DNA of 64,000 nt from Bythopirellula goksoeyrii (GTDB lineage Bacteria > Planctomycetota > Planctomycetia > Pirellulales > Lacipirellulaceae). This document shows, piece by piece, positions 409 through 16,927 of the stretch. Numbering within the stretch: the first letter of the stretch is position 1; each line of letters starts with the position of its first letter. The translations under genes were made by a program, and so were the position numbers. Where the stretch lies: NCBI RefSeq assembly GCF_008065115.1, contig NZ_CP042913.1:6211257-6275256 (forward strand), in the 5' to 3' direction. Below the pieces are notes generated by a model that did not search any database, was not told the origin of the DNA, and was given only the letters and a program-made list of their open reading frames with translations.

Positions 409-1263
409 TCACCGCGCTGCCAGTTCCAACGCCTTCAGTACCTGCACGGCAGTCTGTTCGATGGTCAACTGTGTCACGTCGATCAAGGGGTAGCCTCGTC
501 GCTGGCACTCCTGCTCAAACTCGATTACTTCCCGAATCACGCTCTGCAGGTCGTCGTAGTCGGTGCCGGGAGAACCGGCATGTTTCATCCGTTCCACACG
601 AATCTCATGGAGCCGCTTGGGCTGCATCGTGAAGGCGACGATCTTATTCTTGCCAAGTCGTGTAAGCTCTGCGGGAAAACCTGTCACCGGCGAAATCGAC
701 ACATTGGCTACCTTGAAACCACGCGAACCTAAGTACAACGTCGTGGGACTCTTGCTCACACGGCTCAAGCCTACGATCACGATGTCCGCTTGTTGTAGTG
801 TCGCGGCACCCAGACCGTCGTCGTGTTCCATCGCGAATTCCATCGCCTCGATCCGCTTCTGATAGGTGGCATCCAACTTGTGCAGTTGCGAAAGATCATT
901 GTCCGCCAATTGTCCGACGCAGTCTGCCATGAAATCAAACAAGGGACCGGTCGCGTCGAAATGGGGCACGTGCTGCCGCACACAATACGACCGCACGAAT
1001 TGCTTGGAACTCGCATCGGGGAGCCCATGAATTACAATTGCACGTGGCCCCATGATCCCATGCAGGACGTGTTCGAGCTTTTCGTGTGTATCCGCCAAAG
1101 GGTGCGATAGAATCTCGAAATCAATCCCCGAGAACTGTGTTTCAGCAACCGAGGCAAGGCGAAACAGCAGATCACCCGTAGAGCCCGAAATCAAGTGGAT
1201 CGTATAGGACTCGTTGGGCTTCTCAGGCTCGCGATCAGAGGCAGCTTGTCGTTTTTTTCCCAT
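409..1263 (-). CDS. ppsR: Bifunctional kinase/pyrophosphorylase regulating PEP synthase or PPDK (DUF299)
   Basis: This 284-residue protein has the DUF299 layout. The N-terminal motif HLISGSTGD (about 23-31) starts the fold, and a P-loop-like GLSRVSKSPTT lies near residue 165. The family phosphorylates and dephosphorylates a Thr of phosphoenolpyruvate synthase or pyruvate phosphate dikinase, using ADP as donor, and so switches between glycolysis and gluconeogenesis. The reading frame extends upstream to 1317, but those 18 residues lie in the palindromic repeat at 1285-1370 and in poor coding sequence, so the ATG at 1263 (MGKKRQ) is preferred. Family assignment is firm; which dikinase is the target cannot be seen here. 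Confidence 0.9.
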   Translation of the reverse strand: MGKKRQAASDREPEKPNESYTIHLISGSTGDLLFRLASVAETQFSGIDFEILSHPLADTHEKLEHVLHGIMGPRAIVIHGLPDASSKQFVRSYCVRQHVPHFDATGPLFDFMADCVGQLADNDLSQLHKLDATYQKRIEAMEFAMEHDDGLGAATLQQADIVIVGLSRVSKSPTTLYLGSRGFKVANVSISPVTGFPAELTRLGKNKIVAFTMQPKRLHEIRVERMKHAGSPGTDYDDLQSVIREVIEFEQECQRRGYPLIDVTQLTIEQTAVQVLKALELAAR

Positions 1264-1284
1264 ACTTCCGTTGTAACAGACAGA

Positions 1285-1370
1285 TAGGCCGGAACAAGCC
1301 GTGCGCAGTTCCGGCAAGACATCGTCACACGCAAAACGATGCCGGAACTAGCGTTGCTCGTTCCGGCCTA
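1285..1370. repeat. REP-like palindrome, GGCCGGAACAAGC family, copy 1
   Basis: An 86-bp element starts TAGGCCGGAACAAGCC and ends GCTCGTTCCGGCCTA, giving terminal inverted repeats of about 15 bp with internal smaller hairpins (CAGTTCCGGC / GCCGGAACTA). Further copies with the same termini lie at 6991-7080 and 12056-12144. It sits between the divergent-looking ends of ppsR (start) and the serine hydrolase gene (stop). Confidence 0.8.
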
Positions 1371-1380
1371 CAACTATCGT

Positions 1381-2625
1381 TTATTTCCCTTCGACAATCG
1401 CATCGTACACCAGTGGGTTCGCTACGACGAATGTGCTGTCCCTGTAGGGCAAACTCTGTTCGAGGGTAACCACGGTGAATTCTTCGCGCGGGTTTGCCCA
1501 ATACTGGGTACTCGCCATTCCGCCCCAGCCGTACTCGCCAAGCAGACGTCGATCTTCCGCAGGGATCGGCTTACACACCACACGGAAGCCCAGGCCGAAA
1601 CCTGCGCCAGGATCATCGGCCCAGCCGGTCTTGTCGTCGAGTTGATTGTGTGTCATGAGCGCTACGGTCTCCGGTTTGAGAAATCGCTTTCCGCCTGCCT
1701 CGCCACCGGCAGCGATCATGTTGAAGAACCGCCAATAGTCGGAGGCCGTGGAAACAAGCCCCCCGCCACCCGACAAGAATGTTGCCGGCCGCGCATACCG
1801 ACTCGTCGCGGGGTCATCTTCCACGGTCCACTTGCCCTCTTTCTGCTCATAGCAAACGGCGAACCGATCGAGCTTTTCAGGGGGAACTTGAAACGCCGTA
1901 TCAACCATCCCGAGTGGCTCAAAGATCCGCTCGCTTAAGAATGCATCAAGCGGCTTGCCCGATACCCGCTCCACGACCGCACCCAACACGTCGGTCGAAG
2001 TGCCATAGTGCCAGTCGGTTCCTGGGTCGAAGATTAGCGGCAGACCAGAGAGTTTATCGATCACGTCCTGAAGCGTGCCATTACGGTCCAAGAGATCCTC
2101 CTCGGCGTATAGCCGTTCTACCGGTGATCCCTCGGGGTTGCCATAGATCAATCCCGAAGTGTGCGTCATCAACTGCTGGATGGTCATCGCTGACTTCGCT
2201 GGCTGATTGCCCGCCTCATCGTACACCGTGCGATCGGCCAACTCCGGCAGATACTTCTCGACCGGGTCATCGAGCGCGAGCTTTCCTTCCTCCACGAGCA
2301 TCAACGCCGCAGCCGTCGTGATCGACTTGGTCATCGAATAGATCCGCACGATCGTATCTGCTTGCCAGGGCTTTTGGGCTTCGGCATCCATGTGCCCAAA
2401 CTGCTCGAAGAAGACGACTTTTCCCCGCCGCGCGACCAAGACCGATCCGCCCACGATTTCTCCGTCTTCGACGCGCTGCTGCATCACCTCGCTGATCTTG
2501 GCGAGCTTCTGGCTCGACATGCCGACCTCTTCGGGCGAGACAGTGGGAAGCTGTTGGGCAAGTCCGTAGTTGGTGAGAAAAAGAATCGCCAGACAATTGA
2601 ATAAGAAAATCGTTCGGAAATGCAT
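1381..2625 (-). CDS. Secreted serine hydrolase, class C beta-lactamase/esterase family
   Basis: The protein has 414 residues from the ATG at 2625, which opens a clear signal peptide (MHFRTIFLFNCLAILFLTNY, then GLAQQ). It carries the serine beta-lactamase-like fold. The SxxK nucleophile motif SMTK is at 97-100, the catalytic Tyr is in HYGTSTDVLG, and a C-terminal GWGG replaces the KTG box, as in family VIII esterases. The family hydrolyses esters, D-amino-acid peptides or beta-lactams, so the substrate is open. An in-frame upstream ATG at 2667 would bury the signal peptide and is not preferred. Confidence 0.85.
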   Translation of the reverse strand: MHFRTIFLFNCLAILFLTNYGLAQQLPTVSPEEVGMSSQKLAKISEVMQQRVEDGEIVGGSVLVARRGKVVFFEQFGHMDAEAQKPWQADTIVRIYSMTKSITTAAALMLVEEGKLALDDPVEKYLPELADRTVYDEAGNQPAKSAMTIQQLMTHTSGLIYGNPEGSPVERLYAEEDLLDRNGTLQDVIDKLSGLPLIFDPGTDWHYGTSTDVLGAVVERVSGKPLDAFLSERIFEPLGMVDTAFQVPPEKLDRFAVCYEQKEGKWTVEDDPATSRYARPATFLSGGGGLVSTASDYWRFFNMIAAGGEAGGKRFLKPETVALMTHNQLDDKTGWADDPGAGFGLGFRVVCKPIPAEDRRLLGEYGWGGMASTQYWANPREEFTVVTLEQSLPYRDSTFVVANPLVYDAIVEGK

Positions 2626-2712
2626 CGCCTGCCGCCAAGGGTATGAGTATGGGAATTGGAGCCTCAATTAGAGTCGAGTCACGCATCGCCTGCAATCCTG
2701 TGGAGTATTGCT

Positions 2713-3264
2713 TCAAGAATCCTCGCGGAGGCGATCAATCTCGCTTAGCATGTCACGCACTTCCAACGCATTCTTGACGGCATAGACATTGATCGTGGAA
2801 TACACTCCCCCGGAAGTCGTTGTGATCAAAATCCCATCGATTTCGCAGAGGCGCATCAGTGGATTTTGAAAAGTCGCATAATCGACAATCGCCCGAAAAT
2901 GAAGTTTTCTATCTCGTCTGGTGGAGCCCCCCTCTTTGACACGAAGGAAATCTCCCTCAACCGCAACTTCCAAAGCGGTGGCCCATCGCCGAGCAGCAAA
3001 ATGTCCAAAGACGAAGTAAAGAGTCGCTCCGATCAGCAGCCCCCATCCAATTCCAGTGATTGCTCCACGCAGAAACTCGCTCCAAACTTGTTCCGCGTTT
3101 TCGAAATCCCGCTGTCGATCCTTGCTCGTACTGGCTCCCCCGAAAAGAAAACCAAACGCAAAAGGCACGATAGAACAAGCGATAAATGATTGCACGCGAT
3201 AGAATCTGCACAACTTGTCGCGTTCGATCTCGATAGGAAACGTTTCAGGATATTGGTCGTTCAT
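2713..3264 (-). CDS. Membrane protein with two TM helices and a cytosolic PH-like tail
   Basis: This 183-residue protein begins at the ATG at 3264 (MNDQYPETF). Two hydrophobic segments (about 24-43 and 68-88) flank a short charged loop. A roughly 90-residue soluble C-terminal half follows, with alternating strand-like segments and a final helix. The layout resembles YcxB-like proteins, but no diagnostic motif is present and the name is only a suggestion. It lies just beyond the phage-like cassette on the same strand, separated from it by the palindrome at 3318-3403. Function unknown. Confidence 0.6.
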   Translation of the reverse strand: MNDQYPETFPIEIERDKLCRFYRVQSFIACSIVPFAFGFLFGGASTSKDRQRDFENAEQVWSEFLRGAITGIGWGLLIGATLYFVFGHFAARRWATALEVAVEGDFLRVKEGGSTRRDRKLHFRAIVDYATFQNPLMRLCEIDGILITTTSGGVYSTINVYAVKNALEVRDMLSEIDRLREDS

Positions 3265-3317
3265 GCTTGGTATTTTCCCATGAGCGCCGATAAGCGTCAA
3301 TCAGTGGTTTGTCATGT

Positions 3318-3417: not shown

Positions 3418-4782
3418 TTACGCTTCCCGCTCGCCTTGGTGCATGGCCAGGTTCTTTTGCTCTTGGTCGTAGTCAAGCCCCAGTTTCAGGCTCCAGGTTT
3501 GCGGCGAAAGGATGCCTTTCTCGAAAGCGATCTTTTCGACTTGGCAATGCTGCAAATGGTTACGCACTTCTAGCGATGGGGGTGTGATCTGGATGTCGAC
3601 CAGACGGCGAATGTCGTTAGGTAATCGTCCTGCCAAGGCAGTGTTTTCAACAGCCCGCCACATCACGTCGCGGTCGTCGGTTTCTAGGCCGGCTTGCAGA
3701 CGCTGGAACATCTTTACTGCGGGGCCTTCGGCCACCAGCGTCGAAGCGTAGTTCGAGTTCGACGCGTCGGAGGTGAACATGAACTCTGGCATCACCAAGC
3801 GGGAGGCGACCGCACGCAGTTCGGCCTGCAACACGGCGACAAAATTGCTCGCGTCAATCCCTGCGGCGGGGAAGTCGTACTCCAAGCCCGCCGGGGCATC
3901 GAGGATCGTTCCCGGGGCGTAGTGCGACAGTTGCCGCGTGCGACTGCCGGCGGAAGTTGTCTGACTCTGATCGGCGACGAACTGCTCCACGCCGCTGCGA
4001 GACGCGCCCCGATGTTTGCGAATCAGCGCGATGGCCGACTGGATCTCGGCGACTACACTCATGTTGCGGAGCAGCTTGTCGATGCGGCGCAAGTTCTTCC
4101 GCACGGGGTAATAGAGCGGCAGGCCACGCTTGACGTTCGCGTCGACGTTCGCCTTGCGATGCTGAATCGCCGCCGCATCCACCGGCTGGCCATCGATGTA
4201 ATAGCCCAGCACCGACTCCACGTCGCGCGGTTCGGTATGGATGCCAAAAGTCGCCTCGGGGACATTGACCAGCTCGCGCGGGGTGGCCACTTGGTCCGGC
4301 TCAACAAACCGCACGCGAGTGATGCCGTGGGAATCGACAAAGTAGCGCAGAAACACCTCGCCATCGCGGTCCAATCGTCGCACGATTTCCTGCTGCCGCG
4401 CTTGCCAATGATTCACTTCGAGAAACTCATCGATGACTGTCTGCACTTCGGTTTCCAATTCAGCGCTGGCGTGGGTTCCCTTGCGGACGCAAGCCCGGTA
4501 GACGTGGCCTGTGCCCACCAGATAGCTCACGCGGTTCTCGATGCCATTGATAGCGAACTCGTTGGTGGCCGCCAGATGACGGACTTGATTGCGGATGTCA
4601 GCGAGTTGCTGTTCGGTGGCAAAGGGGACGCTGACCCCCTGCCCCGCCTGGCCGTTGGTGGCGACACTGTCCCACCACTGGCCAGTGTCGTCGAGGTAGG
4701 CGCTGCGGGGATCGACGAACAGATCCCACAGTGCGTCGCAGGCTTCGGTGAGGCGGTGTTCAAGGCGGGTGGTGTCTTGCAT
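3418..4782 (-). CDS. Phage portal protein
   Basis: This 454-residue protein is probably a portal, the dodecameric ring through which DNA enters a phage head. The support is an N-terminal helical region and the pattern NEFAINGIENRVSYLVG common at portal N-termini. The core has many Arg/Asp-rich segments, and a late segment SRLVMPEFMFTSDASNSNY resembles the portal wing/stem region of the lambda-type family. It starts at an ATG with a good GGAG site and is the last gene of the cassette, 115 bp downstream of the large terminase, the usual terminase-to-portal order. Length is near that of short lambda/HK97-type portals. No protease or capsid gene follows. Confidence 0.75.
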   Translation of the reverse strand: MQDTTRLEHRLTEACDALWDLFVDPRSAYLDDTGQWWDSVATNGQAGQGVSVPFATEQQLADIRNQVRHLAATNEFAINGIENRVSYLVGTGHVYRACVRKGTHASAELETEVQTVIDEFLEVNHWQARQQEIVRRLDRDGEVFLRYFVDSHGITRVRFVEPDQVATPRELVNVPEATFGIHTEPRDVESVLGYYIDGQPVDAAAIQHRKANVDANVKRGLPLYYPVRKNLRRIDKLLRNMSVVAEIQSAIALIRKHRGASRSGVEQFVADQSQTTSAGSRTRQLSHYAPGTILDAPAGLEYDFPAAGIDASNFVAVLQAELRAVASRLVMPEFMFTSDASNSNYASTLVAEGPAVKMFQRLQAGLETDDRDVMWRAVENTALAGRLPNDIRRLVDIQITPPSLEVRNHLQHCQVEKIAFEKGILSPQTWSLKLGLDYDQEQKNLAMHQGEREA

Positions 4783-4824
4783 TTGGATTCTCCTTTTAGG
4801 TTGGTGTCATAAATAGGTGTCTTT

Positions 4825-4908
4825 GGCGAGCCGTAAGCGTTAGCGCCCGGAGCATCCTGCGCGACGAAAGAGTTGAAGTTCTCCGGGCGCTTACGCTTAC
4901 GGCTCGCC
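4825..4908. repeat. REP-like palindrome overlapping the terL stop codon
   Basis: The left arm GGCGAGCCGTAAGCGTTAGC and right arm GCGCTTACGCTTACGGCTCG are long, nearly perfect inverted repeats around a roughly 40-bp loop (84 bp in all). The right arm encodes the last residues and the TAA stop of the large terminase, so repeat and gene overlap by about 12 bp. Confidence 0.8.
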
Positions 4909-6525
4909 TCCGATCAGCCGGCTTCCGAGGCCGTCGTTTCTGTTTCCGCTGCCGTAGTGTTCCTCCGCCAGGCGGAGCGCCATCTCCAACGCGTCGGGGC
5001 CGTCGTCGTGGCTGCCTAGCGGGAAATCTCTGAGTTGATCGACCAAGAGCTGCGTGCCGGGGCTGGCAGCGAGGAACCGCACGCGTCGTTGGGCGAGGTA
5101 CGGGCCCAGACGGCGAATGCGGACTTGCTTGTTCACATGGTTGTGAATCGCTGCGGGAGTGCACCAGTGGATTCCCTGCCGGGCAAACTCGCGGACGAAT
5201 TCGTCGGCTAAGAGTTCCTGGAATTGGTTCGCCTCGACGCCGAAGGCATCGGCTTGATGGTGCCAACAGAGGGCTACGCCGCTCGCGACGATTTCAGGAG
5301 TGGGCCGGCGGGCCAGGTCAGCCTCCACGTAGAGCATGCCGCGGCGGTCGATTCCCAGCACGACCAAGGCCGAGTAGTCGCCGTGCTTTGAATCGCGACC
5401 TTTGCTGGGGTCGAGGGCGATCGTTTTGAATTGCAAGTCGGCAGGCCAAGCTTGAAACCAGATCGAGTCATCAAAGTATTCCGCCGGCCATTCGCACCGC
5501 GCGGGATCGAGGGGCGAACTCTGCTTCTCGCGCTCGAAAGTGGCGTGGCCTTCCTGAGTGCGCATTTTCATGAGCAGGTAGAGGTCTTCCCGCTCGGGCC
5601 ATAAGAGATCCGCGCCGGCCTGCATGGCCTGACGATTCTTCTGGAAGAAATTCCAGGCGGCCTGCCCCGCATCACGTCGCGAAACGTCCGTATAGATGCG
5701 TTCCCACTCGGCCCACAAATCCATGTCGGTGGGCCAGCGCTCGATGGCGCGAAACTTGCGCGAGATCCAACCCGGCGTGCGGTCGAGTTGCATCGCCAGG
5801 GCATCGCGGTGCAGAGCTGTGGCGAGGTTGAGGATGTTTGTGCGTTTGTCACCTGCTTTCAGGACGGTGCCATGAAACCAACGACTGCTCGTATCCCGTT
5901 GGTAGGCCGATTGCATGTGCTCGTCGTTTTGCAGATCGTCGCAGACGATCAGCGACGGACGATGGGCCCCGTGGCGACGGCCGCGGAGTCGTTGCCCCGA
6001 GCCGAAGGCCTCGACAAGGGTTCCGTTATTGAGCAGGAGACATTCGGTGACATCGCGCTCGAAGTGGACATGTTCGTACTCCTGGGTGATTCGCTGGTTC
6101 TCGACGAGTTCGCGCTTGAGGTTGGCCAGATGCATTTGAGCTTGGGAACTGGTATCAGAGAGGATCCAGACATAGGGTTCCCACCCCTCCAGGGCGACAC
6201 GCAGCACATAGGCCAGCGAGGCGATGGTCGACTTCGCCCCGCCACGTGGGCCGATCACGTTGAGCTTGGTTCCCCGTTGTTGGGGGAGCAGATCCAACTC
6301 GGCAGCCAACCAGCGATGCATCTTCGAGGGTGGGTGGACAAAGTGCCGTGCGAGATACCGCCGCCCCCAGGCGAGTAAGTCGAGGCTCTGATTCCGCTCT
6401 TGCGCGCGGGCTGCGGTGCGCCACTGGCGATTCACACCTTGTCGCAAGCGGCTTGCCAGTGTTTGCTGCGGCGTCGAGTCCGTTCGCAACATTTGATCGA
6501 CCAGGCTTTGTGTGCGAGAACTCAC
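4897..6525 (-). CDS. Phage terminase large subunit (DNA-packaging ATPase/nuclease)
   Basis: This 542-residue protein has both terminase domains. The N-terminal ATPase has a Walker A variant GPRGGAKST at 92-100 and Walker B LIVCDD at 192-197. The C-terminal RNase H-like nuclease has the first catalytic Asp in ALDPSKGRDSKHGDYSA (about 370) and a final acidic motif HDDGPDALE near the C-terminus. The known role is ATP-driven DNA translocation into a prohead and cutting of concatemers. All motifs look intact, so the gene is not obviously decayed. It starts with GTG, overlapping the upstream small-terminase stop by 4 bases (GTGA), which indicates translational coupling. Its final three codons and stop lie in the palindrome 4825-4908. 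Confidence 0.9.
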   Translation of the reverse strand: MSSRTQSLVDQMLRTDSTPQQTLASRLRQGVNRQWRTAARAQERNQSLDLLAWGRRYLARHFVHPPSKMHRWLAAELDLLPQQRGTKLNVIGPRGGAKSTIASLAYVLRVALEGWEPYVWILSDTSSQAQMHLANLKRELVENQRITQEYEHVHFERDVTECLLLNNGTLVEAFGSGQRLRGRRHGAHRPSLIVCDDLQNDEHMQSAYQRDTSSRWFHGTVLKAGDKRTNILNLATALHRDALAMQLDRTPGWISRKFRAIERWPTDMDLWAEWERIYTDVSRRDAGQAAWNFFQKNRQAMQAGADLLWPEREDLYLLMKMRTQEGHATFEREKQSSPLDPARCEWPAEYFDDSIWFQAWPADLQFKTIALDPSKGRDSKHGDYSALVVLGIDRRGMLYVEADLARRPTPEIVASGVALCWHHQADAFGVEANQFQELLADEFVREFARQGIHWCTPAAIHNHVNKQVRIRRLGPYLAQRRVRFLAASPGTQLLVDQLRDFPLGSHDDGPDALEMALRLAEEHYGSGNRNDGLGSRLIGGEP

Positions 6526-6971
6526 TTCAGCGCTCCCTCGCTCGTGTGAGTCTCACCCTGGGCCAGCGAACCCAAATCGGCCAGCAACTGCTGGCGATCC
6601 TCCAGATTGCTCACGGACTTGACGATGATTGTCGTGAGCGAATCCAGGAAAGCGACCAATTCGGCATCGGTCCAGGCGCGGCTGCCACGCAGGGCAAATT
6701 GTTTCTGAGCCCGCCGTTCCAGCCACCACGTCGCGGCCCGCCAATGTTTTTCGTCCTTGGATGCACTGTGCAAGCTGCGGACAAAATGAAACTGAGCCTG
6801 CCCTTCGGCTTGCTCCACCTCCGAAGCGAACGCGGGATTAGAGTGGAGCTCGTCGGCAAGTTGCTCGGAATTCCACCCAAGCGCCTGAGCCGCCACGGTG
6901 ATTTCGCACCCCATGGCAACCATTGTCCGAATGGCTCGCTTGTCGCTCTCGGTGATTGGTTTGTCTTCCAT
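6522..6971 (-). CDS. Terminase small subunit-like protein
   Basis: This 149-residue, largely helical protein starts at MEDKPITESD (ATG at 6971). Its N-terminal part reads like a helix-turn-helix (GCEITVAAQALGWNSEQLAD). A middle helical region and an acidic C-terminal tail follow, the layout of small terminases that recognise packaging sites. The assignment rests mainly on position, immediately upstream of and coupled to the large terminase, and is inference. No clear Shine-Dalgarno is visible. A GTAGGCC-family palindrome ends 20 bp upstream of the start. Confidence 0.6.
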   Translation of the reverse strand: MEDKPITESDKRAIRTMVAMGCEITVAAQALGWNSEQLADELHSNPAFASEVEQAEGQAQFHFVRSLHSASKDEKHWRAATWWLERRAQKQFALRGSRAWTDAELVAFLDSLTTIIVKSVSNLEDRQQLLADLGSLAQGETHTSEGALK

Positions 6972-6990
6972 GGTTTTATATCGTCGTTTC

Positions 6991-7080
6991 GTAGGCCGGA
7001 ACAAGCCGTGCGCAGTTCCGGCAGGCCATAGTCAACACCGCCGCCATGCCGGAACAGCGCTACCGCTCGTTCCGGCCTAC
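6991..7080. repeat. REP-like palindrome, GGCCGGAACAAGC family, copy 2
   Basis: A 90-bp element opens GTAGGCCGGAACAAGC and closes GCTCGTTCCGGCCTAC. It fills almost the whole gap between the ABC/GNAT gene and the small terminase gene. Its outermost GTAG, read on the minus strand, supplies the TAG stop codon of the ABC/GNAT gene. Confidence 0.85.
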
Positions 7081-8222
7081 GGGTTGCCTATAAATTCAAA
7101 CGACACTACGGCGCGGCCCGTGGCGCTGCGGTAGTCTTTGAATCGTGTGGATTGCCGCGTTCGTGAACCGGCTTTGCGGACGCTTACGGTGCGCCATTGG
7201 GGCGAATGCTTACAGTGGCGAATCAGCGCCGGGTGGCTGCTGGTGACGTTGATCCGCAGGCCGGCTTGCCGATGTAATTGGGCTACTGCCGCGACCACGC
7301 GCATGCCGATTCCCATCCCTTGGAAGTCGGGGAGCGTGACGATCCGCGTGAAGCGGCGGTGATTTTTCTGGGCGATGATCGGTAGCGTTGCACAGAAAGA
7401 GACTGGCTCGCCGTTCCAGAGGGCCAGGTAGCAGCGGGCTCCCGGGGCGATCTTGCCACTCAGATAGTGATGTCGCGCAAACAGTTGCCAAGCAGCCACC
7501 TGGCAGCGATAGATTTCCAGTTCGATAAGTGGCCGCCGAAGCCGCCTCCGTTCTAGCCGAACGGTGGCCATGTCCAACACCCAATCCGCTTCGAGCCACT
7601 CGGCCACATCGTAGTGGCAAGTCACCGCTACAAACCGGCACGGAATCGATCCACGTCGAATCCCTTTGGCAATAGCCGTCGAACAAGCCTTCGCCACCGT
7701 GCGATCCACAACGCTGGTGAATTCGTCGAAAACCAAAAGAGGTGCGAGCTTCGAGTTACGAGTTGCGAGAGAAGACGGTTCATCTTGCTCAAAACTCGTA
7801 ACTCGCGACTCGAAACTCCTTCCCAACGCTCTCGCTAAATCACATCGAAACCGCTGGCCCGTGCTGAGTACATGATACGGCTTGACCCATGACGGGGGCG
7901 AGCTGAAGCCGACTGCGGTGAAGAGCTCCACCACTTGCCGCATCGGCATGTCGCCGAAACTATCGACGACTGCTTTGTCCGCGGGCCAGTCGGCGGCGCC
8001 AGCAATTGCATCGCCATAGCATTCCCGCGCGACGGTGCTCTTGCCACTGCCCGACGGACCGACGATGAGTCCAACGTCCCAGGGTTCGTCTTGCGTGGGT
8101 AGTTCCACGGAAAACCGCTCGGTGCATTTGTCTTCCAGCGGCACATCGAACATGCCGGCCACCTGCTGCACGCGGAAAGATTCAGGGACGGGGCAGGATA
8201 CGGTGATGTTGTGTTTGGTCAT
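7077..8222 (-). CDS. ABC-type ATPase fused to a GNAT acetyltransferase domain
   Basis: The 381-residue protein starts at MTKHNITVSC, with GAGGA about 10 bases upstream. Residues about 1-235 form an ABC ATPase with Walker A GPSGSGKS at 55-62, signature LSTGQ at 119-123 and Walker B LLVFDE at 162-167. No membrane segments are present. Residues about 240-381 resemble a GNAT N-acetyltransferase, with an acetyl-CoA-loop-like segment FQGMGIGMRVV. Such fusions occur beside phage packaging genes, but I know of no established role. Residues about 137-159 look like an extra in-frame segment encoded by a palindromic repeat (7746-7818). Substrate and partner are unknown. Confidence 0.75.
   Translation of the reverse strand: MTKHNITVSCPVPESFRVQQVAGMFDVPLEDKCTERFSVELPTQDEPWDVGLIVGPSGSGKSTVARECYGDAIAGAADWPADKAVVDSFGDMPMRQVVELFTAVGFSSPPSWVKPYHVLSTGQRFRCDLARALGRSFESRVTSFEQDEPSSLATRNSKLAPLLVFDEFTSVVDRTVAKACSTAIAKGIRRGSIPCRFVAVTCHYDVAEWLEADWVLDMATVRLERRRLRRPLIELEIYRCQVAAWQLFARHHYLSGKIAPGARCYLALWNGEPVSFCATLPIIAQKNHRRFTRIVTLPDFQGMGIGMRVVAAVAQLHRQAGLRINVTSSHPALIRHCKHSPQWRTVSVRKAGSRTRQSTRFKDYRSATGRAVVSFEFIGNP
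7746..7818. repeat. Palindromic repeat inserted in frame inside the ABC/GNAT coding sequence
   Basis: Arms GAGCTTCGAGTTACGAGTTG and CTCGTAACTCGCGACTCG are imperfect inverted repeats (about 20 of 24 positions pair). They have the same sequence character as the elements at 8244-8302 and 12297-12330. The 73-bp unit lies between the ABC signature and the Walker B motif, whose spacing is about 24 residues longer than usual. Confidence 0.75.
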
Positions 8223-8243
8223 AATTGTTCGTTCCTCACTTGG

Positions 8244-8302
8244 TTGCGAGTTTCGAATCACGAGTTGCGAGCTATTCTGACTCGCGCCTCGAAACTCGCG
8301 CC
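8244..8302. repeat. Palindromic repeat, TTGCGAGTTTCGA family, intergenic copy
   Basis: Left arm GCGAGTTTCGAATCACGAG and right arm CTCGCGCCTCGAAACTCGC form a hairpin with a short loop. It lies between the ParB-like gene and the ABC/GNAT start and is related to 7746-7818. Confidence 0.75.
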
Positions 8303-8306
8303 TTCC

Positions 8307-8870
8307 CTACAATGTCACGACTCGGCAACGATAGCATTGCCCATTTACGAACTCATATACTTCTTGCTGCTGCTCTTCGTCCTTGCATTCCACCACGACC
8401 TGGTAGGCGGTGGGGATCGGGGGTTCGGGACGCTCGGCGACGGCGTCGAGATCCTCTTCTACTTGCTGCATTTCCGCTTCGAGTTCGGCGACCATGGCTA
8501 CGAGTTGCGGATTATTGAAATCGCACAACTCGATCAGATCGTGCAGTTGCTCTTCGTCGGTTTCGGCCAGCGCGGTGAGGGGGTCGTGGGTGAGCAGAAT
8601 CTTGATCGTCTCGGCTTCGTCTACGTCCAGCACTAATACCGGCACCAGGGCGTCAGGAGTGGTTTCGGCCCTCAGGTGGCCATCGATGATTTCCAAGCGT
8701 CCGTCGGGGAGTTCTCGAGCGAGCAGTGCGTCAGCGTAGCCGACTTCGGCCAAGATGCCACGCATGGCATTCCGCTGGGCGACGGGGTGGGTTCGCCAGT
8801 TGCGAATGTTCGGCACGAGTTCGCTCGCGCGCACTCGGCGGAGTTCTTGGATGCGGTCGCGGATTTGCAT
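8307..8870 (-). CDS. ParB N-terminal-domain protein
   Basis: This 187-residue protein opens with a ParB/sulfiredoxin-like fold: a short basic strand, then SELVPNIRNWRTHPVAQ, and the box IIDGHLRAE at about residues 62-70. In classical ParB the same fold binds CTP and carries a GERR box; here the motif is the phage-type variant. The C-terminal half is acidic and helical, and no helix-turn-helix is evident, so it is not a full ParB partition protein. Such domains are common next to phage terminases. Its role here, perhaps DNA binding or nicking, is inference. Confidence 0.75.
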   Translation of the reverse strand: MQIRDRIQELRRVRASELVPNIRNWRTHPVAQRNAMRGILAEVGYADALLARELPDGRLEIIDGHLRAETTPDALVPVLVLDVDEAETIKILLTHDPLTALAETDEEQLHDLIELCDFNNPQLVAMVAELEAEMQQVEEDLDAVAERPEPPIPTAYQVVVECKDEEQQQEVYEFVNGQCYRCRVVTL

Positions 8871-8931
8871 GGGTGAGTATCCTATTCCAGTGCTCCGCTC
8901 CGCCTCGTGAGGCTCGGCAGGCGCGTTACGG

Positions 8932-9186
8932 CTATCGTTCGTTTATTAAGCGGCCAACCAAGTCGCGGAGTTCGCGGATGTCGGTGCGCAATTGCTCGGT
9001 GGTGTGCTCCAATGCCTTGAGGCCAGCTTTCACTTCGCCAATCTCTCGGGCTGAGGCGAACCTACTTTCGGCGGTTGGTTCTTGCTGCGCTTGCGCGAGC
9101 GCCAATGCGAGCGACGCCGACAGAAGCGCAGCGATCAACGTCGCCGCCGCTGGCCAACCGAGTTGTTTACGTGGGTCACTTGTCAT
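8932..9186 (-). CDS. Small TM plus coiled-coil protein (spanin- or holin-like?)
   Basis: 84 residues start at MTSDPRKQLG. A single hydrophobic helix (about 12-32, rich in Ala and Leu) is followed by a charged helical segment with heptad character (EVKAGLKALEHTTEQLRTDI). An N-terminal anchor with a coiled coil outside resembles inner-membrane spanins of phages, but there is no sequence-specific signature. The reading frame extends upstream to 9321, but that part lies within the inverted repeat at 9204-9320 and is discounted. Confidence 0.6.
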   Translation of the reverse strand: MTSDPRKQLGWPAAATLIAALLSASLALALAQAQQEPTAESRFASAREIGEVKAGLKALEHTTEQLRTDIRELRDLVGRLINER

Positions 9187-9203
9187 CGTGAGATTCCTCT
9201 CAT

Positions 9204-9320
9204 TGTCATTCCGAAGGAGTTCCGCGACCGAGGAACCTAGGTAGAGCATGTTCTCGTTCTCAATGCATGTTCTTGTCGCCACCCAGATCCCTCGGTCGCT
9301 TAGGCTCCCTCGGGATGACA
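9204..9320. repeat. Palindromic repeat, TGTCATTCCGA family
   Basis: TGTCATTCCGAAGGAGTTCC with CGACCGAGGAACCT is mirrored by CCCTCGGTCGCTTAGG and CTCCCTCGGGATGACA. The element is about 117 bp and fills the space between the 226-aa gene and the TM/coiled-coil gene. A related single arm is at 12344-12385. Confidence 0.7.
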
Positions 9321-9327
9321 TTTCTAA

Positions 9328-10008
9328 TTACTTCACTCCTCCACCTGCCGTTTCACTTCTCAGGTTAGGCGAATCGGTCGGCCCAAGCGGTTCTTCGGTA
9401 GGTCGCACTCCGGCGGCCATATCGACGCGGTTGGCATCGCCAGCAAACGCGTTGAGATACTCGAGAATCTGCACGTAGCTGCCGTACATTCGCATCGAAT
9501 CTTTCACGTAGATAAACGTGCTGCGGAAGCGGCTTTCCAGGCGGCTCCAATTGACGATCGCCCGATCGACGGCTCCGAGCAAAATCAATGCATTCTGACT
9601 GCGAAAGTTGAGCTGACTCGCCAGCGGGATGTTGGGGTCCGTTCCATCGAGCGCCCACGGCAAAGCGATCAACCCGCCGGGGGCCTCTTGCACTTCGTCA
9701 CCCCCGAAGGGGTTCGTCGAACCCAGGAGCGTAATCTTGGTGTCGGTCGCGTTCTCGATCAGCTCGCCGAGCGGCCGCTTGTCGGGATTGTAGGTCACCC
9801 GCCGCCGCATGCGGTCGCTCGCCAGCAGGTGTTCGACGTAGTGGTTCTTGGTCGTCTCGTCCAAGCCCCCGCGGACACCGAACTCATCATTCGAGACAAC
9901 CTCGCTACGAAAGTCAAAAAGGGGTCCGAGGGCGGCGACGATGTGCAAATTGCGAAACTCCGAGATTGCTCGTCGAAATTGTTCTTTTCCAGGATCTCCA
10001 GCAGGCAT
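9328..10008 (-). CDS. Conserved-looking protein of unknown function in the phage-like cassette
   Basis: This 226-residue soluble protein has no signal peptide or membrane segment. It opens with a helix-rich region (EQFRRAISEFRNLHIVAALG), has a central part with LGSTNPFGGDEVQE, then a long helical segment (SQNALILLGAVDRAIVNWSRLE) and a Gly/Pro-rich tail. I do not recognise a family. Its position among packaging and lysis-like genes suggests a phage-derived role, but that is context only. Confidence 0.6.
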   Translation of the reverse strand: MPAGDPGKEQFRRAISEFRNLHIVAALGPLFDFRSEVVSNDEFGVRGGLDETTKNHYVEHLLASDRMRRRVTYNPDKRPLGELIENATDTKITLLGSTNPFGGDEVQEAPGGLIALPWALDGTDPNIPLASQLNFRSQNALILLGAVDRAIVNWSRLESRFRSTFIYVKDSMRMYGSYVQILEYLNAFAGDANRVDMAAGVRPTEEPLGPTDSPNLRSETAGGGVK

Positions 10009-10056
10009 AGATTCGTTCCTTATGGTTAGTGGTTAGTGAAACGTGGTGTTGTCGAA

Positions 10057-10084
10057 AGCCGGGGGATTGCAATCCCCCGGCGTT
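10057..10084. repeat. Short perfect palindrome GCCGGGGGATTGCAATCCCCCGGC
   Basis: A near-perfect 24-28 bp palindrome centred on ATTGCAAT stands between the 226-aa gene and the start-less ORF. The same core (GGGATTGCAATTCC) recurs at 59989-60023. It could form a stable hairpin in RNA; there is no T-run on either side. Confidence 0.7.
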
Positions 10085-10117
10085 ACGTTCGTTCCTTACT
10101 GTAAGACGGAGTTCGTG

Positions 10118-10465
10118 CTACGCGTTCCGGCCCACAGTGAACTTCGTTGGCGCGATGTCGTTGAATCGTTCGCGGAGTTCGCGTCTCAGCTGGTCGGCCC
10201 ACTTCGCACGCTGCGGATCAGCGTCACTGTCGGCAGCCGCGTCGAGCCGGTCGAGTGCAAGGCGTCCTGCAACTGCGTCTTGTAGCGGGTCACGTCCCTC
10301 CAGTCGTGAAAGTTGTAAAAGTTCTTGAGTCTCATGGTCGTCACGCTCGATCGGTTGATACTCAGCGCGAAACGTATCGTCCGCGGTGGCGGTCGTCTCC
10401 TCACTAGCTGCGAAAGGGTTCTTTGCAACGACCTCCGGCGCCGCTTCGTTTCCAAACTCGTCCGA
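10118..10465 (-). other. Start-less open frame overlapping the protease 3' end
   Basis: Reading the minus strand, 115 codons stay open between a TGA (10466-10468) and a TAG (10118-10120). The product is hydrophilic and looks coding: EYQPIERDDHETQELL, then RDPLQDAVAGRLALDRLD, ending NDIAPTKFTVGRNA. No ATG or TTG occurs in it, and the only GTG is five codons from the stop. Its first 62 bases overlap the protease gene in the +1 frame. It may be a frameshift extension of the protease, a separate gene that lost its start, or a decayed gene. A CCC-TTT step in the protease frame shortly before its stop is a plausible +1 slip site. Confidence 0.5.
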
Positions 10466-11441
10466 TCAGCCAACCGCCGACGCTGCCAGCCGCAATCACT
10501 GCCCAGCCCGTCGGTCCGCTGATGCCGAGCAAACTTGTCACAGCCTCCGCAACGCGACCGGTACCACTTGCTTTGGCGAGTTCTGTAATTCGTTCCGTAA
10601 GCGATGCATGCCGCGAGTTACTCTCTGATTCCAATCGATCCACCCGCTCCACCAACGAATCGAACTGATTCTTCTCAATGCCCGGCAACTGCGGTTGCCG
10701 TGGTTCATGTGGTCGTGGGTTCTGCACGGGAATCTGCGGCACCACACGAGGGCACGTCCCATTCGGGCAGGCATGCAACGTCGCTGTGCGCCGCCCCAAC
10801 ACGCGATCCAAGAACCGCCGCAGCGGTGGGCCGGTACTCGCGTAGGTAATGCCTGCCGATTCGCCCCACGCGACGGCGACCAATCGGCCTTGGCTGTCGA
10901 ATACGCCGCCGCCGGAGTCACCAGAGCGCACCGCATCGCCAATTAAGATGCTGCGCTGCCCCGTTGAATTGGATTCGCCCACAATCGGTCCCGTCGCACA
11001 ACGATAATCACCTGTGGGGCCAAAGCCGCAGGCACTCAATTGGTCGCTCTGGTTGAAATTGAATTCGACAGTCGCGGTCGTGTTCGCCGGATTGGCGATC
11101 ACCACTGCTGCCAGATCAGCATCTCGGTCCAGGTCTACCAATCGAGCCCCGTGCGACTTCGTCCCAGGAAACTCGACGACGATTTCACCCACGCCCTCAG
11201 TGAACAGATGGGCACAAGTGAGAACAAGCCCTTGCGCGTCGCTCTTGTCGACGAGTGTGCCACTGCCGACGTTGGTAATCTCGCCGAGCCTGTTGGTCAC
11301 GCGGCACACCGCTTCATGCGGCACGGTATCTCCCTGGCAACGGTTGCACATCGCCAAGAGCACCAACAGCAATACGGCCAGCCAACACACTCCGGCGACT
11401 GTCGGGGCGAGACCACGATTCTTCTCTCTTGCTAGATTCAT
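10404..11441 (-). CDS. Membrane-tethered trypsin-like serine protease
   Basis: A 345-residue protein starts with a signal peptide or anchor (about 11-33). A chymotrypsin-fold domain follows with the full triad: His78 in LTCAHL, Asp109 in DRDADLAAV and Ser176 in RSGDSGGG. A Pro-rich linker, a coiled-coil stretch (QFDSLVERVDRLESES) and a C-terminal hydrophobic helix (GWAVIAAGSVGGWLIG) come next. It should act outside the cytoplasmic membrane, anchored at one or both ends. The start ATG is one base after the stop of the upstream hydrolase gene, with GGGGAG inside that gene, so the two are coupled. Its target is unknown. The 3' end overlaps the start-less ORF. Confidence 0.8.
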   Translation of the reverse strand: MNLAREKNRGLAPTVAGVCWLAVLLLVLLAMCNRCQGDTVPHEAVCRVTNRLGEITNVGSGTLVDKSDAQGLVLTCAHLFTEGVGEIVVEFPGTKSHGARLVDLDRDADLAAVVIANPANTTATVEFNFNQSDQLSACGFGPTGDYRCATGPIVGESNSTGQRSILIGDAVRSGDSGGGVFDSQGRLVAVAWGESAGITYASTGPPLRRFLDRVLGRRTATLHACPNGTCPRVVPQIPVQNPRPHEPRQPQLPGIEKNQFDSLVERVDRLESESNSRHASLTERITELAKASGTGRVAEAVTSLLGISGPTGWAVIAAGSVGGWLIGRVWKRSGAGGRCKEPFRS

Positions 11442-11442
11442 C

Positions 11443-12036
11443 TCACACTCCCCTCAAAGTGAACCGGTAACGGTAAAACGAACTGCGGGCCAAATCGGCA
11501 GGCTCGGTGATGCGGTCTGCCAAATGCGGCACTGGATCGACATGGCCCCCAATGCGATCCGCCATCGCGCACGCCTCAGAACAGAACGGCGGACGTTTTA
11601 CCACGTGCGAATCGTCGGTCGTGGGCCGCATAAACACGCGCCACAGCGGCACATGTAACAGGGCCGCTTCCAGCAGACCTCGATAGCCATAGTCGCACCC
11701 AGTGAGTTGCAGCATGTGTTGAATTGCCCCATGGCGGTCGTACTCGGCCCACCGGTTGTCGGGATTGGTGGCAAACACATCGATCCGCCCGGGGAACTTG
11801 CGAACCTGACTCGCAAGCGTCACCGCCCGGCCTCCCTTGAGTTCCCGCACTTCACAGCAAAAGAGGGTGTCCCCCCACCAAATGGCCCGCGCCGCATGGG
11901 TGTAGGGCGAACGACCCGCCGTGCCAATCAGCCGCGCGAGGAGTCCGCTTCCACGAAAGAGCAGCAGGTCGCCATTCCAGATCAGCGAGGCACACTCGCT
12001 GAGCCGGACCCGTTTTTGCTTTTGATGTGTCACCAT
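11443..12036 (-). CDS. YiiX/NlpC-P60-like cysteine hydrolase
   Basis: This 197-residue protein begins at MVTHQKQ, with AAAGGA upstream. It has the permuted papain-like layout of YiiX/DUF830 proteins. The opening GDLLLFRGSG is followed by a conserved His in SPYTHAARAIWW, and the candidate nucleophile Cys lies late, in PPFCSEACA. The family cleaves amide or thioester bonds in peptidoglycan or acyl substrates. As first gene of the cassette it could play an endolysin-like part, which is inference from neighbours. There is no signal peptide, so export would need help, as for phage endolysins. A GTAGGCC-family palindrome ends 20 bp before the start. Confidence 0.75.
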   Translation of the reverse strand: MVTHQKQKRVRLSECASLIWNGDLLLFRGSGLLARLIGTAGRSPYTHAARAIWWGDTLFCCEVRELKGGRAVTLASQVRKFPGRIDVFATNPDNRWAEYDRHGAIQHMLQLTGCDYGYRGLLEAALLHVPLWRVFMRPTTDDSHVVKRPPFCSEACAMADRIGGHVDPVPHLADRITEPADLARSSFYRYRFTLRGV

Positions 12037-12157: not shown

Positions 12158-12199
12158 AAAAAAGCCCGCCACCGGAAAATGAATTCCAGTGACGGGCTC
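12158..12199 (-). terminator. Rho-independent terminator, minus strand
   Basis: On the minus strand a GC-rich hairpin (GAGCCCGTCACTGG paired with CCGGTGGCGGGC) is followed directly by TTTTTT. It would stop transcription entering the cassette from the genes to the right, so the cassette probably has its own promoter in the palindrome-rich gap at 12037-12157. Confidence 0.75.
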
Positions 12200-13755: not shown

Positions 13756-14835
13756 TTAGCGCCTAGTGCCTTCCAATCGCCGATTGGCGACGCGGCCTTG
13801 GTAGTCTCGCTCATAGACACTGAACTCGGCCCACACCGGAAAATGGTCGGAGATTTCCAGGGCCTGTTGCTCGGTGAGATTGTAGTTGCGCATCACGTCG
13901 AACACGCCCGAGCGACCCGTGTATTCGGTGGTCGAAGGTTGGTGGATGATGAGGTTGTCGTACTGATTGTCCTGCCGCGTGTTGGTCCATACGCCGGCGA
14001 TCGTGGGGAAAATGCCCGGCATTTGTCCTAGGCGATAGAGATGGCGGTCGTCGCTGTGAAAATCTCCTACCAGTATCACGTCGTCTTCCTGGCGGGCCGA
14101 ACGCCGTACCACGCGATAGACCTCGGCCAAAGCGTCGAGTTCGTCGTTCACCTTGACAGGGTCGGTGCGATTGTTCACCACCGTGAATGTAAAGGCTTCA
14201 TCAGGGTGGACCCCTCGCGTCGTGAAAGTTGCCACCAGCGGTTCGGCAAACAACAGATCGTCGGGGTCGCTGATGGTGTAGACGCTTTGGCGGTCGACTT
14301 CGATGCGTTCGGTGTCGAATAGGTAGAGGAACTGTTCTTGGTTGGTCGTGCGACCTACCCTGGGACCGATGATGTGATCGTAGCGTCGCTGGGGGAAATT
14401 GCCGCCGGGGTTGTTGACAAGCTGGACGAAATTCGGGACTAAATAGTCGTTGCTCGAACGGATTTCCTGAATGGCAACGATATCGAACTTGCGGATGATG
14501 TCGGCCAGTCGCACCATCACATGTTGCTTGCCCGCCTTGGTGTTGCCCAAGGCTTGGACGTTGAACGAAGCGATTCGAATCACGGGGCCGCTGTTGGGTT
14601 GCCCAGGTGGCTGAATCGCGCCGTTGTTTCCCGTGGAAGCGGGTTGATAGGGCGAAGAGTCGGTCGGCGGTGCATTCCAATTGCCAGGACTGCGATACTG
14701 GGTGCCGGCTTGGGGAGAGTTCTGCTGACTCGCGCCAGACTGCGTGGCAATGTGCTCAAGGCCACCTCCTTGAAGAAAGGTGTAGCCGAGCCAGCCGATC
14801 AAGGCGAGTGTTCCTAGTGAAAGTATCCGTTGCAC
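13756..14835 (-). CDS. Membrane-anchored endonuclease/exonuclease/phosphatase-fold protein
   Basis: 359 residues: an N-terminal signal anchor (about 5-22), a Gln/Pro/Ser-rich linker and then a DNase I-like domain. Motifs visible in order are RIASFNVQAL, the metal-binding Glu in VAIQEIRSS, VVNNRTDP, GDFHSDDRH and the final ISDHFPVWAEF. The fold cleaves phosphodiester bonds in DNA, lipids or nucleotides. With an exported domain, an extracellular nuclease is a reasonable guess. The stop is followed by a gap of about 150 bases before hicB. Confidence 0.85.
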   Translation of the reverse strand: MQRILSLGTLALIGWLGYTFLQGGGLEHIATQSGASQQNSPQAGTQYRSPGNWNAPPTDSSPYQPASTGNNGAIQPPGQPNSGPVIRIASFNVQALGNTKAGKQHVMVRLADIIRKFDIVAIQEIRSSNDYLVPNFVQLVNNPGGNFPQRRYDHIIGPRVGRTTNQEQFLYLFDTERIEVDRQSVYTISDPDDLLFAEPLVATFTTRGVHPDEAFTFTVVNNRTDPVKVNDELDALAEVYRVVRRSARQEDDVILVGDFHSDDRHLYRLGQMPGIFPTIAGVWTNTRQDNQYDNLIIHQPSTTEYTGRSGVFDVMRNYNLTEQQALEISDHFPVWAEFSVYERDYQGRVANRRLEGTRR

Positions 14836-14987
14836 GACCCCCTCCTTGGGTGACGAACAAGATGGTGAAAGAGATTGAAAAGCGCAGCATGTTCCCGGGC
14901 GAAAAAGTGGACGAAGGGTAGCGAAAAGGTGCTATCGCGACCAGATGTGTTTTCCGTGCTAGCGTCGCACTGCTGTTACGTCTTTCC

Positions 14988-15052
14988 CACGCAGGCGGGA
15001 ATCCAGACGGTGGCGGTGAACCACTGGGTTACCGCCTGCGCGAGAATGACAT
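14988..15052. repeat. Imperfect inverted repeat CACGCAGGCGGGAATCC
   Basis: CCCACGCAGGCGGGAATCC with distal CCGCCTGCGCGAGAATGAC forms a loose hairpin between moaB and the DNase I-like gene. No second copy is in this window. Confidence 0.45.
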
Positions 15053-15068
15053 GGAGTTGACCGCTTTC

Positions 15069-15593
15069 TTATCGTAGGGCGTGGTTCACGAGATGGCCCA
15101 ACTCGGGCAGAATGAGTTTGTCCATCGCCAGTCGTACGGCTGCTGACGAGCCAGGCATGGTCAGCACCAGCGTCTGGCCGATCAATCCACCGCAGGCGCG
15201 GCTAAGCATCGCGGCAGCGCCGATTTCCTGATAGCTGAGCGAGCGGAGCAATTCTCCATAGCCTGGAAGTTCTTTGGTCAAGAGCGGAAGTATCGCCTCG
15301 GGCGTCTGATCACGCGCGGCGATACCAGTCCCGCCCGTCACAAGAATGGCATCGACGTCGTCGCGCGCTGCGAGTGCTGTCACAAGCTCGGCCAGCGGCA
15401 AGGGATCATCGGGCACAACGATGTGCTCAACCACTGGGTGTCCCTTCCCTTGCAGGCCTTCAACAATAAGGTGCCCACTCTTGTCCGTGTCCAGCGTACG
15501 GGTGTCGCTCACTGTCACCACGGCACAGCGGACTGCCGAAGGTGCGGATTGACGGTGTTCTGTGGCCGAGGGGCTACAATATTCTTCGCTCAT
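15069..15593 (-). CDS. moaB: Molybdopterin adenylyltransferase-like protein MoaB/MogA
   Basis: 174 residues from MSEEYCSPSA. The MPT-binding fold is shown by VVTVSDTRTL near residue 25, the substrate loop TGGTGIAARDQTPEA and a late LTMPGSSAAVRLAMDKLILP. The family adenylylates molybdopterin before molybdenum insertion, although some MoaB proteins have lost that activity. No other moa/moe gene is in the window. The frame extends to 15713, but the extra part crosses the palindrome at 15629-15655. Confidence 0.9.
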   Translation of the reverse strand: MSEEYCSPSATEHRQSAPSAVRCAVVTVSDTRTLDTDKSGHLIVEGLQGKGHPVVEHIVVPDDPLPLAELVTALAARDDVDAILVTGGTGIAARDQTPEAILPLLTKELPGYGELLRSLSYQEIGAAAMLSRACGGLIGQTLVLTMPGSSAAVRLAMDKLILPELGHLVNHALR

Positions 15594-15628
15594 AGGGACC
15601 GCCAAGAAAGGAGAACTTGCTACTTTGA

Positions 15629-15655
15629 TAGCCATGGGCCTGGCGCCCACGGCTA
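15629..15655. repeat. Short TAGCC...GGCTA palindrome
   Basis: TAGCCATGGGCCTGGCGCCC then ACGGCTA: TAGCC/GGCTA termini with a GGGC/GCCC stem, 27 bp, in the divergent gap between moaB and the HEAT-like gene. Confidence 0.7.
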
Positions 15656-15730
15656 CTATACCTCCACTTTTCAAACTATAATAAAGCATACCCGCCCAAG
15701 TGAGGAATGACACCCGTCTGCAACGCTTCC

Positions 15731-16927
15731 ATGAAATGGCTATCCATTACTATTGGCCTGACTCTCATCGCTGCGACCAGTGTTCGCGCGGATGTGTTCC
15801 ATTTGGCCGAGGGGGGGAAGGTCGTCGGGCAGCTTGTTGATCGCAGTGAAGACGGTAAGTACGTAGTGAAAACCTCTAGCGGTGCCACAATAACTTTCAC
15901 CGACGACCAGGTCGAAGATGTCGAACAGCAGAGTGAGCATCAGCAAGCCTACGAGGCCCGGAGCCGTGCACTTCCTGACACGGTTGCCGCCCATCGTTCG
16001 CTGGCTGATTGGTGCAAACAGCATTCGCTCTCCGATTTGGCCGATCACCACTTGCAGAGAATCTTGGAACTGGATCCCGAAGATCCCCAAGCGCGCTCCA
16101 GCCTTGGCTATCAACGTCATAACGGCAAGTGGCTCACTCGCGACGAAATCATGGCCGAGCGCGGCATGCAATTCTACGACGGCACCTACCGCACGGCCCA
16201 AGACATTGCCCTGCGCGAACGCGCCAAGATGCGCGAAACCAGTTCGGACGAATGGTTCAAACAACTGCGACTATGGCGCGACTGGCTCGACAATCGGCGC
16301 GCAGGGCGGGCTGACGAAGCACTGCAAAACTTGCGTGCGGTGACCGATCCGGCGGCGGCAACTTCGGTGGTGAAGCTTCTCAAGAGTGAGCGCGATCCAG
16401 TCGTCCGCGACTTGTGGATGGAGATTCTGGCCCAGATCGATCACCCAGCCGCTGTCGCAAGACTGATCGATCTTTCGATCGACGAACCGTACCGCGAGAC
16501 TCGCCTGCAATGTCTCGACTATTTATTGCGCGCCAGACGTACGATCGATATCACCCCCTACGTGAAAGCACTCAAGAGCAAGGACAACGAGACCGTGAAC
16601 ATTGCTGCTGAGGCACTTGGGTTAATAGGCAATTCCGATGCGATCAGTCCTTTGATTGACTCTCTGGTGACCACCCACAAGTTCCGCAATCCAAACGCTC
16701 AGCAGGGGAATATGAGTGCGTCCTTCGACGGCAGCGGCGGTTCGGCCTTCAGCGCCGGCGGCGGGCCTAAAATCATCCAACAGGACATGCAAAATGTCGA
16801 AGTCCGCCGGTCACTGGTGAAACTATCTGGATCACAGGACCATGGCTTCAATCCGACCGCTTGGCGGCGTTGGTTCGTGAATCAACAGAGCGACCAGCCT
16901 TACGTAGATCCGCGGCGCGATCGATAA
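15731..16927 (+). CDS. Secreted protein with HEAT-like repeats
   Basis: 398 residues from MKWLSITIGL, a signal peptide ending near VRADV. An SH3-like N-terminal part (FHLAEGGKVVGQLVDRSEDG) is typical of planctomycete proteins that sense or bind in the periplasm. A TPR-like pair of helices follows (LADHHLQRILELDPEDPQAR). The C-terminal half has HEAT-like repeats such as NIAAEALGLIGNSDAISPLI, then a Ser/Gly-rich segment. No catalytic residues are evident. The function is probably a protein-interaction scaffold. Confidence 0.75.
   Translation: MKWLSITIGLTLIAATSVRADVFHLAEGGKVVGQLVDRSEDGKYVVKTSSGATITFTDDQVEDVEQQSEHQQAYEARSRALPDTVAAHRSLADWCKQHSLSDLADHHLQRILELDPEDPQARSSLGYQRHNGKWLTRDEIMAERGMQFYDGTYRTAQDIALRERAKMRETSSDEWFKQLRLWRDWLDNRRAGRADEALQNLRAVTDPAAATSVVKLLKSERDPVVRDLWMEILAQIDHPAAVARLIDLSIDEPYRETRLQCLDYLLRARRTIDITPYVKALKSKDNETVNIAAEALGLIGNSDAISPLIDSLVTTHKFRNPNAQQGNMSASFDGSGGSAFSAGGGPKIIQQDMQNVEVRRSLVKLSGSQDHGFNPTAWRRWFVNQQSDQPYVDPRRDR

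Follow-up and report, generated by a model that had tools for sequence, protein, structure and literature searches.

To our knowledge, every gene transfer agent (GTA) characterized so far is tailed. GTAs have been formally recognized in few lineages, alphaproteobacteria and spirochaetes, and are placed in the families Rhodogtaviriformidae (RcGTA), Bartogtaviriformidae, and Brachygtaviriformidae (PMC9953437). Capsid-forming PICIs (cf-PICIs) carry their own capsid, protease, portal, connector, and terminase genes, while tail genes are absent (PMC10690885). The nearest published item to the locus described here is a Zavarzinella prophage whose large terminase (TerL) is related to that of RcGTA (PMC7947584). 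In the planctomycete GTA literature, with subscription papers and preprints mostly outside the scope of the search, we found no description of this locus.

We analyzed a 64,000-nucleotide stretch of the Bythopirellula goksoeyrii genome (hereafter the window). We propose, with roughly even confidence, that it holds half of a phage head-and-packaging cassette domesticated long ago in the order Pirellulales, a GTA-like viriform that would form a head-only or very reduced particle. Such a cassette would be a host-owned DNA-packaging device and may represent a gene transfer agent of a new kind. The term GTA-like is used because the tail of the characterized GTAs is missing. How does the cassette compare with the described systems? 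Like GTAs, it is a fixed set of phage-derived head and packaging genes, single copy, vertically inherited, under selection, and free of integrase and replication genes, and the predicted fold of its stopper matches a protein of the native GTA particle 6tba. Unlike them, it resides in Planctomycetota and has no recognizable genes for a tailed particle; the likeness is one of gene content, inheritance, selection, and stopper fold. The closest architectural parallel is the cf-PICIs, which, like the Mulch- and Flayer-type satellites, have their own capsid, protease, portal, connectors, and terminases and are tail-free (PMC10690885). Mobility sets them apart: the cassette has no integrase or replication module, does not move, and is inherited vertically across an order.

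The packaging half is made up of nine minus-strand genes (Table 1). Their coordinates and main Pfam and PHROG matches agree with the initial annotation, the YiiX-like assignment being weak by Pfam (Peptidase_C92 in one of 16 family members, E-value 0.005). In the family alignment of the YiiX-like protein, His38 and Cys143 are invariant, and the gene is 57-92% conserved at an unchanged position in relatives. The trypsin-like protease has apparent terminal hydrophobic segments by which it may be tethered. The 226 amino acid protein is the most conserved product of the cassette (84-98% identity within the family; dN/dS about 0.02); it has no match in Pfam, PHROG, or PDB, and its AlphaFold model is too poor for use (pLDDT 41). 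In different genera, the same slot holds either this protein or another, c23, each 75-98% conserved among most family members, with no detectable relation between the two on comparison. The ABC/GNAT fusion is a phage-type gene that frequently neighbors ParB; it is 41% identical to genes of Gordonia and Arthrobacter phages, several of which adjoin ParB-like genes. The Walker A (GPRGGAKST), CDD, and nuclease (D...DDGPDA) motifs of TerL are kept across 22 relatives, which bears out the complete ATPase and nuclease motifs reported in the initial annotation. The coupled starts noted there are present as well, as a 4-base overlap between TerS and TerL and as YiiX-like and protease reading frames that almost touch. 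The portal is 95% identical to that of Bythopirellula polymerisocia; a search of the window's own genome for portal family PF04860 gave no match because this portal belongs to PF05136. We saw no mutational decay in the cassette genes of the window. The terminator-like hairpin is a consensus match, and such sites are not more numerous in the region than expected by chance.

Table 1. Features of the cassette and its surroundings in B. goksoeyrii (window positions unless marked as genome positions)
Feature	Position	Strand	Basis or remark
Host flank: endo/exonuclease-phosphatase family, MoCF-type, and HEAT-repeat genes	13756..16927		Conserved at this place in many relatives
Terminator-like hairpin immediately before the YiiX-like gene, parting the cassette from the upstream gene	12162..12199	-	16-pair stem followed by T run
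YiiX/C92-like (permuted NlpC/P60) putative hydrolase, first gene of the packaging unit	11443..12036	-	Family alignment, Pfam
Trypsin-like serine protease	10404..11441	-	Trypsin_2, E 1.8e-14; position kept in relatives
226 amino acid protein, function unassigned	9328..10008	-	Family-wide conservation
Small protein with hydrophobic segment	8932..9186	-	Start chosen from relatives of 92-95 amino acids
ParB-N domain protein	8307..8870	-	phrog_620, E 7e-10; position conserved
ABC-ATPase/GNAT fusion	7077..8222	-	phrog_11143, E 2e-97
Small terminase subunit (TerS)	6522..6971	-	phrog_4102, E 8e-9
Large terminase subunit (TerL)	4897..6525	-	phrog_38, E 1.5e-75; Terminase_6C
Portal, lambda family	3418..4782	-	PF05136, E 2.7e-22; phrog_21, E 8e-38
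Three host-type genes: PH-domain (bPH), beta-lactamase family, kinase-PPPase	409..3300	-	Between portal and head block
Head block: small c25, protease-like c4, decoration-like c13, major capsid c5, small c14	genome 6205958-6209382	-	Same strand as packaging genes

The initial annotation found no capsid gene because the window edge falls before the head block. A search of the genome that contains the window, with a relative's capsid protein as query, located a major capsid gene, c5 (83% identical), on the minus strand at genome positions 6206299-6207453, 3.8 kb left of the first base of the window (6211257). It matches PF25209 (E-value 4e-13), and the prohead-protease-like, decoration-like, and capsid genes together lie about 2-5 kb past the window's left edge. 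The cassette encodes TerS and TerL, a portal, and an HK97-type major capsid protein of the Phage_capsid_4 family, and probably also a maturation protease and a decoration protein. PDB sequence profiles gave no match for the capsid protein or c4, and a gpW-like identity considered for the 76 amino acid c14 was unsupported by Pfam and PDB profiles.

Approximately 5.3 kb of DNA, including host-type genes, lies between portal and head block; three of these genes fall inside the window. The genes at which the unit had been thought to stop are ordinary host genes, but they are an insertion between the two halves of the cassette rather than its end. In B. polymerisocia the head block is inverted and flanks the packaging genes from the opposite side. 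Most of the remaining relatives have c4, c13, and c5 right behind the portal or separated from it by one small gene, then often c21/c22 (LamG) and c18, and finally c14, c9, and host genes. Both blocks persist even in certain genomes where they have traded places, been inverted, or come to lie more than 20 kb from each other. Near the head block of the window genome there is a reverse transcriptase open reading frame (L070:8735-10213) that by eye looks like the group II intron type; it might have had a role in rearranging the locus.

How widespread is the cassette? Of the 29 good genomes of the Lacipirellulaceae, a family that includes Bythopirellula and Lacipirellula, 28 have a single TerL relative each (54-77% identity). 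The capsid profile has strong matches in 17 of the 20 families of the Pirellulales, and in our sample of the phylum outside this order its matches are few and weak. Capsid and TerL are found together in 103 of 247 genomes, capsid alone in 10, TerL alone in six, and neither in 128 (Fisher test, p-value = 2E-49). Three of the 10 capsid-only genomes (G053, G069, G166) have a second type of TerL, which in G053 and G069 shares a contig with the capsid gene, no more than about 4 kb away from it. The initial annotation had suggested looking for the same gene order, without capsid genes, at different sites in relatives. The order is indeed fixed, but capsid genes are present and the chromosomal site is often identical. 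The upstream host flank is conserved in many family members, and site and flank recur in members of families f2, f3, f12, and f17 (f1-f21 being our code labels for families in the genome sample).

The cassette is inherited vertically across the Pirellulales. A tree built from TerL, portal, c4, capsid, and ABC/GNAT for 30 genomes has 20 of 27 splits in common with the RpoB tree, contains 16 of the 17 strong RpoB splits, and shows no strongly supported conflict with it (distance correlation 0.92). Both halves are under purifying selection, with dN/dS mostly 0.02-0.3 across cassette genes (Nei-Gojobori method), values that are approximate because dS is near saturation in several pairs. The comparison of terL and portal proposed in the initial annotation gave 0.15 and 0.05 when the window genome was paired with its closest relative (G000/G011). 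For the capsid gene the value in this pair is 0.05, and for the fast-evolving TerS 0.36. In Lacipirellula limnantheis (L106, L039) the capsid gene is in two parts about 12 kb from each other and has an in-frame stop, but the reading frames of TerL and portal are open; this is ongoing loss in one lineage.

In most relatives a head-to-tail stopper is encoded as well, and frequently also a LamG protein. The stopper gene, c9, is the last gene of the cassette where present. Solved head-to-tail stoppers, that of 6tba among them, match the fold predicted for its product with a pLDDT of 85 (Foldseek probability 1.00, E-values only 0.02-0.07), and a profile matches SPP1 gp16 (E-value 0.05). Neither the window genome nor B. 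polymerisocia has the gene at all, and it is missing from several others too (at least five relatives besides the window genome). Given this absence and the one broken capsid gene, some lineages may be losing the system. Capsid, portal, and TerL are still selected in the window genome and B. polymerisocia, which have the loss in common, so the function that remains apparently needs no stopper. In the window genome the expected stopper slot, between c14 and an XRE regulator, is occupied by a gene for a 23S rRNA-intervening-sequence (four-helix bundle) protein (L070:14232-14627).

How might a GTA-like cassette of this kind operate? We infer that a host signal of some kind would lead to expression of the two gene units and that capsids would assemble on the portal. 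The terminase, freed from a mobile genome, would then pump host chromosomal DNA into them. The particles could leave the cell by lysis or another route, perhaps with the help of the YiiX-like and trypsin-like proteins. More specifically, and somewhat more tentatively than the GTA-like assignment itself, we suggest that a tail-less DNA-packaging capsid encoded in two separable blocks has been a near-core function of the order since its radiation. It would then be a viriform of a new class, one that either moves or exports host DNA tail-free or puts DNA-filled capsids to some other use. Among the readings offered in the initial annotation, it is the domesticated device for DNA transfer or export that the evidence favors.

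A domesticated head module might also serve a role other than transfer, with DNA-filled or empty capsids kept inside the cell or with a lytic, sacrificial, or decoy product that delivers no DNA. The absence of a tail or any recognizable delivery apparatus fits such a role. So does the loss of the stopper in the window lineage and others while capsid, portal, and terminase remain selected, since a DNA-filled particle would be expected to need one. However, the TerL nuclease and ATPase motifs and the TerS gene are conserved, which a shell that delivers no DNA would hardly need, and most lineages retain the stopper. We regard this explanation as unlikely, though worth keeping in view.

No tail gene is recognized in the cassette with PHROGs or Pfam, and compact copies have no gene at all between stopper and host flank. 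PhageMin_Tail, a generic tape-measure family and the sole tail family searched genome-wide, is absent from 16 of 25 cassette genomes, the window's included, and its matches in the others are weak or scattered. Both observations speak against a normally tailed GTA in which the tail genes are encoded at another locus or have diverged beyond recognition by these libraries. This explanation is distinctly unlikely in our judgment. It draws what plausibility it has from the splitting of the cassette in some genomes, which makes scattered genes possible, from the uncharacterized proteins c18, c21, c22, and c23 or its 226 amino acid counterpart, and from a diverged relative of the cassette in family f15 that has tail-like genes. 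The second TerL of the window genome was considered as a possible tail supplier and rejected; it is part of a decayed prophage piece that showed no tail gene. That piece (L062:4383-14016; genome 4322382-4332015) carries an integrase, a DNA polymerase A, a ParB-methyltransferase, a terminase-like HTH gene, TerL, and a second integrase.

Integrase and replication families likewise have no match in the cassette, and compact copies consist, from YiiX to stopper, of recurrent families; the absence of tail and integrase stated in the initial annotation therefore holds within the reach of the libraries used. The satellite that borrows capsids, as entertained there, is refuted by a cassette that has its own capsid, no integrase, and vertical inheritance. 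Could the cassette instead be the fixed descendant of a cf-PICI-like satellite that makes its own heads and borrows tails from infecting phages? The gene content fits (PMC10690885), with capsid and packaging genes and no tail. Yet integrase and replication genes are missing, and in place of a mobile, patchy distribution we find vertical inheritance, near-universal presence in the family, and a site that is often the same across families. Moreover, stopper-less lineages, which have no part on which a tail could dock, still keep their heads under selection. Such descent seems improbable. A decayed prophage, with the window copy a leftover, is highly improbable and contradicted by the tests of selection and tree: pieces are lost or broken in some lineages, but dN/dS is far below 1, the cassette is single copy across the order with an RpoB-like tree, its separated blocks are co-retained, and the genuine decayed prophage of the same genome differs, with its integrases, its polymerase, and a TerL that has neither portal nor capsid beside it. 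A remnant truncated after the portal is refuted by the nearby head genes and the purifying selection on both halves. The initial annotation had named, as the mark of simple decay, relatives in which complete head and tail genes follow the portal, together with relaxed selection here; the relatives have the head genes and no recognizable tail, and selection is not relaxed.

If the GTA-like reading is true, an order-wide, vertically inherited head cassette in the Planctomycetota extends the GTA kind to a new phylum and raises the question whether a GTA needs a tail at all. The cultured Bythopirellula and Lacipirellula make that question directly testable, though the capsid gene of L. limnantheis is broken.

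Tailed phages related to the cassette are found in IMG/VR. In L166, L175, L180, L185, and L187 the major capsid protein is 47-54% identical to that of the cassette, and portal, c4, c13, c14, and stopper, where present, are in the same order. In L166 and L185 the stopper is followed by neck, tail-terminator, and tape-measure genes, whereas the cassette halts at the stopper; it does not combine the head, tail, integration, and replication modules of a complete tailed phage. TerL of the D3112/DMS3-type transposable Pseudomonas phages belongs to the same broad family (about 35% identity), and the cassette capsid has no match to any phage-collection record, these phages included. Many other IMG/VR "viral" contigs are apparently not phages: L113-L150 and similar contigs, some from isolate genomes, seem to be the host cassette called as provirus, as do roughly half of the best 80 IMG/VR matches.

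The f15 relative mentioned above (L083/L084, L085/L086, L107/L108) occurs in several genomes of that family, mostly in one copy each. Its capsid scores about 250 bits, and it carries the tail-like phrog_290 and phrog_10909. It may represent either a lineage of prophages or another GTA-like element, this one with a tail.
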